NCBI GenBank assembly: GCA_016763155.1
Contig: JAESUH010000217.1
Location: 35,845 to 99,844, forward strand
Origin: Rhizobiaceae bacterium
GTDB taxonomy: Bacteria; Pseudomonadota; Alphaproteobacteria; Rhizobiales; Rhizobiaceae
Direction of reading: 5' to 3'
DNA length: 64,000 nucleotides
Shown: positions 35,985-37,853 of the stretch, one piece after another
Layout of the letters: the number at the start of each line of letters is the position of its first letter
Numbering within the stretch: the first letter of the stretch is position 1
Notes under the pieces: generated by a model
The model's database searches: none
Told to the model about the DNA's origin: nothing
The model's input: the letters and a program-made list of their open reading frames with translations, nothing else
Translations under genes and position numbers: made by a program

Positions 35985-37007
35985 TTATTTCTTCTTAAGC
36001 AGTCCGCGATTGACCAGCAATTCTGCAATCTGCACCGTATTAAGGGCTGCACCCTTGCGCAGATTATCGGAAACCACCCAAAGGTTGAGACCATTTTCCA
36101 CGGTGATATCTTCGCGGATACGGGAGATATAAGTCGCATCTTCGCCGGCGCATTCATAAGGGGTCATATAACCACCATCCTCATGTTTATCGATCACCAG
36201 ACAACCGGGAGCTTCGCGAAGAATATCACGGGCTTCCGTTGCAGAAATTGGGTTTTCAAACTCGATATTGACTGATTCCGCATGGCCAACAAAGACCGGC
36301 ACGCGCACGGCAGTACAAGTAACCTTGATATTTTTATCAAGAATTTTCTTGGTCTCTGCCAGCACCTTCCATTCTTCCTTGGTGTAACCATCTTCCATAA
36401 AATCATCGATATGAGGGATAACGTTGAAAGCAATGCGTTTGGTGAATTTTCTCACTTCAATTGGATCAGCTACAAACACTGCTCTGGTCTGCTCGAACAA
36501 TTCATCCATGGCCTCTTTGCCAGCGCCCGATACTGCCTGATAGGTAGAAACCACAACACGTTTGATTTTCGCTATGTCATGCAACGGTTTCAGAGCTACC
36601 ACCAGTTGAGCGGTGGAGCAATTTGGGTTGGCGATAATGTTCTTTTTGGAAAACCCTTCAATCGCATCTGCATTGACCTCGGGAACAATCAAAGGCACAG
36701 CGGAATCATAGCGAAACGCCGATGAATTATCGATGACAACACAGCCCTTGGCAGCAATTTTTGGTGCCCATTCCTTCGAAATTTTACCACCAGCGGACAT
36801 CAGTACTATATCTGTGCCGGAAAAATCGAAAGTATCCAGCGATCTAACCTTCAGGGATTTATCGCCAAAAGATACTTCCTTACCTTGTGACCGGCGCGAG
36901 GCCAGCGCCACCAATTCATCAATTGGAAAGCCCCGCTCATGCAGAATTTCCAACATTTCCTGGCCCACATTACCTGTGGCGCCAACGATTGCGACTTTAA
37001 TACCCAT
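35985..37007 (-). CDS. asd: Aspartate-semialdehyde dehydrogenase
   Basis: Asd reduces aspartyl phosphate to the semialdehyde, the common precursor of lysine/diaminopimelate, threonine and methionine. The 340-residue protein has the NADP motif VAIVGATGNVGQEMLEIL at its start, the active-site cysteine in NPNCSTAQLVVAL (about residue 129), SGAGKEAMDEL, and the catalytic histidine in VFVGHAESVNIEF. The ATG at 37007 has GGAG eight bases upstream. The upstream 230 bases hold a small ORF rich in Thr and Lys codons and possible alternative RNA folds, described separately. It is monocistronic here, convergent with the carbonic anhydrase gene. Confidence 0.95.
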   Translation of the reverse strand: MGIKVAIVGATGNVGQEMLEILHERGFPIDELVALASRRSQGKEVSFGDKSLKVRSLDTFDFSGTDIVLMSAGGKISKEWAPKIAAKGCVVIDNSSAFRYDSAVPLIVPEVNADAIEGFSKKNIIANPNCSTAQLVVALKPLHDIAKIKRVVVSTYQAVSGAGKEAMDELFEQTRAVFVADPIEVRKFTKRIAFNVIPHIDDFMEDGYTKEEWKVLAETKKILDKNIKVTCTAVRVPVFVGHAESVNIEFENPISATEARDILREAPGCLVIDKHEDGGYMTPYECAGEDATYISRIREDITVENGLNLWVVSDNLRKGAALNTVQIAELLVNRGLLKKK

Positions 37008-37101
37008 AATTTTGCTCCATGCGCTCTCCCCAAGGTTTCAGCCGAATGGCTGTTTCTCCCAGCTTGTGGCCCGGGAGAGATTTGGGAACAAGCAGAGGAA
37101 A
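37008..37101 (-). promoter_or_regulatory. asd leader with alternative base-pairing segments
   Basis: In the asd mRNA leader UCUCUCCC (37080 to 37073) can pair either with GGGAGA (37060 to 37055) or, as CUCUCCC, with GGGAGAG (37030 to 37024), about 17 bases before the start codon. A small CAGCC-AUUC-GGCUG hairpin (37052 to 37039) lies between. There is no U tract, so a classical intrinsic terminator is not seen. Confidence 0.35.
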
Positions 37102-37227
37102 TCAGACCTTGGTGGTCTTCTTTGCTGTGGTTGTTTTTGATGTGGCAACAGATGCGCAGCCGGACACATTCGCGTCAATGATTGACACGAGGAAATGGCC
37201 TGAATGAAAAACACACATATTGTGCAT
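37102..37227 (-). CDS. Candidate 41-residue leader peptide of asd
   Basis: Reading on the minus strand, ATG at 37227 is preceded by AGGAG at nine bases, a strong ribosome binding site. The 41-codon ORF starts MHNMCVFHSGHFLVSII and ends ATSKTTTAKKTTKV: ten of the last fourteen codons are Thr or Lys, apart from Ala, Ser and Val. Threonine and lysine are end products of the pathway in which the next gene, asd (94 bases downstream), acts. It resembles an amino-acid-sensing leader peptide rather than a functional protein. It is contained in the longer track ORF ending 37362, whose upstream part has no such binding site. Unrecognised as a protein family. Confidence 0.4.
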   Translation of the reverse strand: MHNMCVFHSGHFLVSIIDANVSGCASVATSKTTTAKKTTKV

Positions 37228-37343
37228 AGAATGCTGCTCCTGTTGGAAGATGTCATAGGGCATCTTCCCGATTGTCACAAGCCAACACGCCGCAAAATAT
37301 ACTAAATGTGTACTCCACCAAAATTGAGTGCTAGCTTTTTTGA

Positions 37344-37853
37344 ATGATTTTGCTACCACCACTTACTATTTGCGCATTTTCACCAATATTTCGCGAGGCA
37401 TTTAGAACGATGCTGCGCGAAAGCTGGACAGAAACCTATTCAGGTGAATTGGGAAAAGAAGTGGCCAAGGCCATGACCGAACGATTGTCTACGGATGATC
37501 TGGCAGGGCTGGTGCCAAGCCGGGATGAGCAGGCCGTGATTGCCCTGCAGGATAACGAGATTTGTGGCAGTGCTATTTCTGCGGCACGCGGAAACATAAC
37601 TTATCTTTGGGGCGTGTATGTTTTGCAGCGTTTTCAACGACAAGGCATTGGACGCGCATTATTGGCGAAGGCCGTGTTGGCTCATAGCATGGACAATGTG
37701 GTTGAAATTTTTGTCCTGAAGAGCAGTATCGGTGCGATAAAATTCTATGAGGGGCTGGGCTTTAAGCCTACCTCAGAGGATGATCTTGAGATATTGCCGG
37801 GGCTCTCCTACCCCTCAATGACCATGCAAATTCCTGCATCTGCTCTGGTGTAA
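37344..37853 (+). CDS. GNAT-family N-acetyltransferase
   Basis: A 169-residue acetyltransferase-fold protein. The acetyl-CoA loop is RFQRQGIGRALLAKAVLAH (Q/R-x-x-G-x-G/A pattern), preceded by ITYLWGVYVL and followed by the C-terminal block IFVLKSSIGAIKFYEGLGFKPTSEDDLE. The opening MLRESWTETYSGELG resembles GNATs that begin with a W-ETY segment. The substrate, which could be a small amine or a protein N-terminus, cannot be stated. Two starts are possible: ATG 37344 as in the track and ATG 37410, which has GCGAGG at some distance. It is flanked by convergent leuB and divergent asd leader sequence, and appears monocistronic. Confidence 0.8.
   Translation: MILLPPLTICAFSPIFREAFRTMLRESWTETYSGELGKEVAKAMTERLSTDDLAGLVPSRDEQAVIALQDNEICGSAISAARGNITYLWGVYVLQRFQRQGIGRALLAKAVLAHSMDNVVEIFVLKSSIGAIKFYEGLGFKPTSEDDLEILPGLSYPSMTMQIPASALV

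Follow-up and report, generated by a model that had tools for sequence, protein, structure and literature searches.

A putative threonine/lysine-sensing leader peptide upstream of asd in rhizobia and their relatives

The leader thrL of the Escherichia coli thrABC operon is rich in codons for threonine and isoleucine, the end products of the pathway, and acts through an intrinsic terminator. In translation attenuators of the ermC type, which function without a terminator, a leader ribosome stalled through nascent-peptide arrest, in answer to antibiotics, exposes or hides the ribosome-binding site downstream. The gene considered here, asd, is needed for the synthesis of threonine, lysine and methionine and, via diaminopimelate, for the cell wall.

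A short ORF of Sinorhizobium meliloti, SEP5, was found to be translated by Ribo-seq and Western blot in a 2023 study (PMC10117765). According to the accessible passages of that paper, SEP5 carries six Thr codons and three Lys codons close to its 3' end, lies in the 5'-UTR of a gene named aspartate dehydrogenase, is conserved only in Sinorhizobium and was termed "possibly a leader peptide" (PMC10117765). These tail counts equal those of the consensus of one class of asd leaders (class A, below), and SEP5 is therefore very probably the same element, i.e., the S. meliloti counterpart of the asd leader, matched by its description and not by its sequence. Whereas SEP5 is restricted to one genus in the paper, the accessible passages of which contain no RNA structure, the same type of tail is found here across much of the order Rhizobiales.

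The asd leader shares with the thr, trp, leu and his attenuators an upstream short ORF with start signals and a conserved cluster of end-product codons, but mostly lacks their intrinsic terminator, a G+C hairpin followed by a U-tract. Its likeness to thrL lies in the codons for pathway end products placed before a threonine-pathway operon, and the Ile-containing tails of class B recall the Thr/Ile codons of thrL; it differs in having no terminator, in its amino acids (Thr and Lys, some Ile) and in its target, asd. Unlike the ermC type, its presumed signal is amino acid supply. The distal arm of its RNA ends 5' of the Shine-Dalgarno sequence. With the trpL/peTrpL leader of rhizobia, members of the same clade, it has in common control codons near the end of the ORF and pairing segments right after the stop. 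An order-wide description of an asd leader was not found in the openly accessible literature; the present analysis adds its spread over the order, the evidence from its codons, the conserved helices and the comparison of terminators.

The asd leader in the window and in related genomes

The window, i.e., the whole stretch of 64,000 nucleotides that was analysed, carries the leader and asd on its minus strand:

37102..37227, minus strand: leader ORF of 41 codons, MHNMCVFHSGHFLVSIIDANVSGCASVATSKTTTAKKTTKV, read from the sequence; counterpart ORFs were found in relatives
37105..37146, minus strand: control region, the last 14 codons with six Thr and four Lys; the Thr/Lys enrichment is conserved in relatives
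37237..37241, minus strand: AGGAG, presumed Shine-Dalgarno sequence of the leader ORF, nine bases 5' of the leader ATG
37015..37018, minus strand: GGAG, presumed Shine-Dalgarno sequence of asd, read from the sequence
35985..37007, minus strand: asd, aspartate-semialdehyde dehydrogenase, the presumed regulated gene, with a match to TIGR01296 asd_B

A preliminary description of this DNA had noted the 41-codon minus-strand ORF (37227-37102), the AGGAG nine bases before its ATG and the six Thr and four Lys among its last fourteen codons, and had named asd as the next gene. All of this was borne out, the identity of asd by a TIGR01296 asd_B profile score of 479 bits against a cut-off of 324. The leuB and leuD genes lie upstream of the leader on the same strand as asd, and a GNAT acetyltransferase gene on the opposite strand (37344-37853) is located between leuB/leuD and the leader. 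An inverted repeat, GGAAGATG-CCCTATGA-CATCTTCC (37244-37268, minus strand), adjoins the leader Shine-Dalgarno sequence on its upstream side; it might serve as an operator or form a hairpin at the 5' end of the leader transcript. No Rfam family, including the lysine riboswitch (RF00168), matched at gathering thresholds in the window and six relatives, and at a relaxed threshold the leader region gave chance-level matches only.

The asd gene was found in 150 of 151 related genomes, and upstream DNA was taken from 109 of these loci; 78 further asd loci with named organisms were added for a total of 187 upstream regions (the two sets may share a few species). The best ORF tail had at least 6 Thr/Lys among 14 residues in 156 of the 187 regions, as compared to 0/187 antisense strands and 8/1870 dinucleotide shuffles. 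By this comparison of sequences, the conserved Thr/Lys-rich short ORF expected before asd in relatives is real and far above chance. Carriers known by name include Brucella, Agrobacterium, Rhizobium, Mesorhizobium, Shinella, Hoeflea, Martelella, Roseibium, Pseudovibrio and Aureimonas. Among the 24 sampled families of the order (family labels as given by the search), 16 have the leader and eight do not. Of the 27 genomes that belong to other orders of the class, one has a leader-like tail upstream of asd (L213). This tail is AAPTTTKKTKTVA* (the asterisk marks the stop) and ends 109 nt before asd; it possibly reflects an older origin or a transfer.

No Thr/Lys leader was found upstream of asd at the loci L042, L065, L072, L081, L098, L100-L102, L104-L106, L108 and L109. 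Some leaderless loci come from small genomes (L072, 1.9 Mb; L106, 1.4 Mb), which suggests that loss of the leader accompanies genome reduction. A comparable leader was not found before hom, dapA and lysC of related genomes, where the starts of hom and of part of the lysC genes were only bracketed. Comparison of the sequences thus shows that, of the four aspartate-pathway genes covered (asd, hom, dapA and lysC), asd alone has the leader.

The leaders were sorted into three classes. In class A the tail is typically KTTAKTTTKTV* and ends about 95-125 nt before asd. In class B the tails are TIKTKTTI*, RSLTKTSIS* or similar, contain Ile and end about 75-90 nt before asd. Class C comprises all the remaining leaders. 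Class B tails (e.g., L027, L035 and L160) often end in Ile, as in KTTI* or TKTSIS*; isoleucine is made from threonine. A purine-rich Shine-Dalgarno sequence together with an in-frame ATG was seen in only 77 of 134 leaders.

Evolution of the leader tail

The tail evolves as a protein-coding sequence in class A, as judged from its codons. Among single-base codon differences in class A tails, 65% are synonymous, versus 27% expected without selection, while in the other two frames the synonymous share is below expectation (22% against 30%, and 5% against 19%). Variability grows from codon position 1 to 3, the third position being the most variable. Codon choice within the tail also departs from that of the gene downstream: AAA makes up 73% of the Lys codons of the tail versus 12% of those in the asd bodies (106 genomes). 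Thr and Lys account for 41% and 19% of the 14 tail residues; of the 20 residues that precede them, only 6% are Thr. It is extremely improbable that the Thr/Lys richness simply follows from a repetitive ACN/AAR tract or an RNA motif and owes nothing to translation. The tail bases of class A do also pair with the segment that follows the stop (GGCCAA with TTGGCC), which could sway the choice of codons, but the synonymous bias appears in the leader frame alone, the third codon position is the one that varies most, and ribosome footprints across the ORF have been reported for SEP5 in the accessible passages.

Across the order, the Thr/Lys composition of the tail is kept and the N-terminal sequence is not, and leader length ranges from about 11 to over 40 codons. 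Because the N-terminal part is unconserved, the peptide as such is unlikely to be what matters. It is very unlikely that the ORF encodes a small protein with a function of its own, or a peptide acting in trans, and that its place before asd is incidental, even though peTrpL of Sinorhizobium acts in trans (PMC7298713, as far as its accessible passages go) and tagged SEP5 was abundant enough for a Western blot (PMC10117765, likewise); conservation of tail composition only speaks against such a product. The reading as a leader peptide, which the preliminary description had offered, is thus strongly supported by the conservation of Thr and Lys, the synonymous evolution, the bias in Lys codons, the restriction to asd and SEP5; the choice between two exclusive RNA folds that went with it is a step that we infer.

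RNA pairing between the leader and asd

The spacer between the leader stop and asd contains the following elements in the window:

37088..37093, minus strand: segment a, GCTTGT, +9 to +14 after the leader stop, pairs with c; conserved in relatives
37073..37079, minus strand: segment b, CTCTCCC, pairs with e (distal) or d (local), from the helix tests
37062..37067, minus strand: segment c, ACAAGC, partner of a; conserved in relatives
37055..37060, minus strand: segment d, GGGAGA, local partner of b (the first fold described earlier), from the sequence and with a weaker pairing statistic
37039..37052, minus strand: small hairpin CAGCC-ATTC-GGCTG between the local and distal folds; a hairpin is frequent here in relatives
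37024..37031, minus strand: segment e, GGGGAGAG, distal partner of b just 5' of the asd ribosome-binding site, from the helix tests

The preliminary description had segment b pairing with either GGGAGA at 37060 or GGGAGAG at 37030, the second fold reaching to about 17 bases before the asd start. Both pairings are present, with GGGAGA at 37060-37055 and, as CTCTCCC/GGGAGAG, with GGGGAGAG at 37031-37024. The distal arm e ends 17 nt before the asd ATG and 5 nt 5' of the GGAG Shine-Dalgarno sequence, and its pairing is conserved with changes in the partners; in relatives also, the distal arm often ends about 15-20 nt before the asd start. The distal helix stops upstream of the asd Shine-Dalgarno sequence and does not cover it. 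The a:c hairpin, absent from the earlier account, represents in the window a hairpin that relatives have conserved; in them, segment a begins about 6-11 nt past the stop (median, 7 in class B and 11 in classes A and C). The fold of the window RNA alone is not exceptional (z = -1.65), and the case therefore rests on comparison among relatives.

Column-pair covariation against a tree-simulated null did not single out the helices, probably because of register shifts between clades, and an alignment-free test was used instead. In this self/cross test, the longest Watson-Crick helix formed with the partner from the same genome is compared to that formed with the partner from another genome, the b window extending from +16 to +42 after the leader stop, the a window from +1 to +15 and the e window from -26 to -8 of asd; the final figures come from windows without overlap. 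For b:e the longest helix measured 6.24 within genomes versus 5.50 between genomes (z = 7.7), evidence that is that of an alignment-free test whose composition control (2.6) is itself not null. The signal was present in all three classes (z = 3.3 to 4.9 each). For a:c the z was 6.3 (control, 3.5), with the strongest signal in class B. Pairing of the tail codons with a gave 3.6 (control, -0.1), mainly from class A. The local b:d pairing was weaker than the distal one (z = 3.6; control, 1.7, from an earlier version of the test). In an alignment of 22 class B sequences, a:c was paired in 100% of the cells and three of its seven pairs had changed on both sides; column counting of b:e in this class was also disturbed by register shifts. 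The compensatory changes looked for in the stems are seen as co-variation of the a:c and b:e partners between genomes, in the self/cross test and in the class B alignment. Comparison thus shows, at the level of sequence, that the downstream RNA keeps two helices: the post-stop hairpin a:c, and b:e just 5' of the asd ribosome-binding site.

In place of two exclusive folds, the two helices might form jointly as an H-type pseudoknot beside the asd ribosome-binding site, to be opened by a ribosome at the leader end. Both helices co-vary and, in class B, they have no bases in common and are separated by gaps of mostly 3-5 nt (a to b) and 0-1 nt (b to c), hence with textbook pseudoknot spacing. These adjoining boundaries are, however, partly an automatic result of the C- and G-rich runs. 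In a rough energy model, only 7/23 sequences of class B, 1/59 of class A and 0/27 of class C gave a pseudoknot no more than 2 kcal/mol above the best nested fold, and in the window it was 11.6 kcal/mol worse. A joint pseudoknot is on balance doubtful; as a general fold it was rejected, since its energy is competitive in only some class B sequences. When accessibility of the asd ribosome-binding site was modelled with a leader ribosome at several positions, the direction of the change was not consistent. Of the two exclusive folds first proposed, the distal pairing has stood as a conserved feature; the proposal missed the third pairing, a:c, part of the family has spacing compatible with a pseudoknot in place of strict alternatives, and modelling assigned no direction to the switch.

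Proposed control of asd

As the preliminary description had stated, the window spacer has no U-rich terminator, and the same is generally true of relatives. At least six T in 8 nt occurred in only 5 of 134 asd spacers, whereas 12 of 13 trpE spacers of relatives, the window's own genome included, have such a tract, their leaders ending in a U-tract terminator. This T-tract measure took the place of a perfect-stem terminator detector, which found only 2/19 trp terminators. A few class A relatives have at least four T behind a hairpin, and these may possess a weak terminator. The trpE region of the window's own genome (L316) contains the trp leader MKCTKLWWWTR followed by a G+C hairpin and a T-tract, a terminator-type attenuator. 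Since U-tracts are rare before asd, its control is probably translational or Rho-linked.

One form of Rho-linked control would dispense with the folds as a switch: the leader ribosome would govern loading of Rho on the untranslated C/U-rich spacer, and so transcription into asd, the hairpins only tuning the process. The scarcity of U-tracts and a spacer of about 75-125 nt that is pyrimidine-rich right after the leader stop are in its favor. Yet conserved pairing that ends beside the asd ribosome-binding site in all three classes would be unneeded for Rho, and we regard this form as rather unlikely.

With good confidence, the asd leader is taken to be a cis-acting, amino acid-responsive leader peptide that adjusts asd via the RNA that follows it. 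The transcript would start upstream of 37227, and a ribosome would translate the leader ORF first. When charged tRNA-Thr or tRNA-Lys is scarce, the ribosome would slow or stall in the Thr/Lys run leading up to the stop. Its position would determine whether segment a, which begins at about +6 to +9, is free to pair with c: by the generally known size of the ribosome footprint, a ribosome on the last control codons is estimated to end just short of a, and one at the stop would cover a at least in part. The state of a:c would in turn set the use of segment b, either locally or with e beside the asd ribosome-binding site. The outcome would be altered translation of asd or altered access of Rho to the untranslated spacer, presumably with more asd made when Thr or Lys is short, the direction assumed from the usual logic of leaders. 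The arrangement resembles that of the classical attenuators, with the region of the asd ribosome-binding site in the terminator's place. Tentatively, it may be extended to an order-wide, terminator-free sensor that reads Thr and Lys (Ile in one class) and controls the shared branch-point gene asd via a conserved, possibly pseudoknotted RNA at the ribosome-binding site, beside terminator-type trp attenuators in the same genomes.

As compared across these genomes, the asd leader very probably lets the ribosome sense a shortage of Thr or Lys and adjust asd in rhizobia and their relatives. It makes terminator-free amino acid leader control testable in this order with simple reporters, and the trp leader in the same cell could serve as a control. 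A conserved sensor before asd, where no Rfam regulator was found, would explain how this branch point is tuned in rhizobia, Agrobacterium, Brucella and their relatives.
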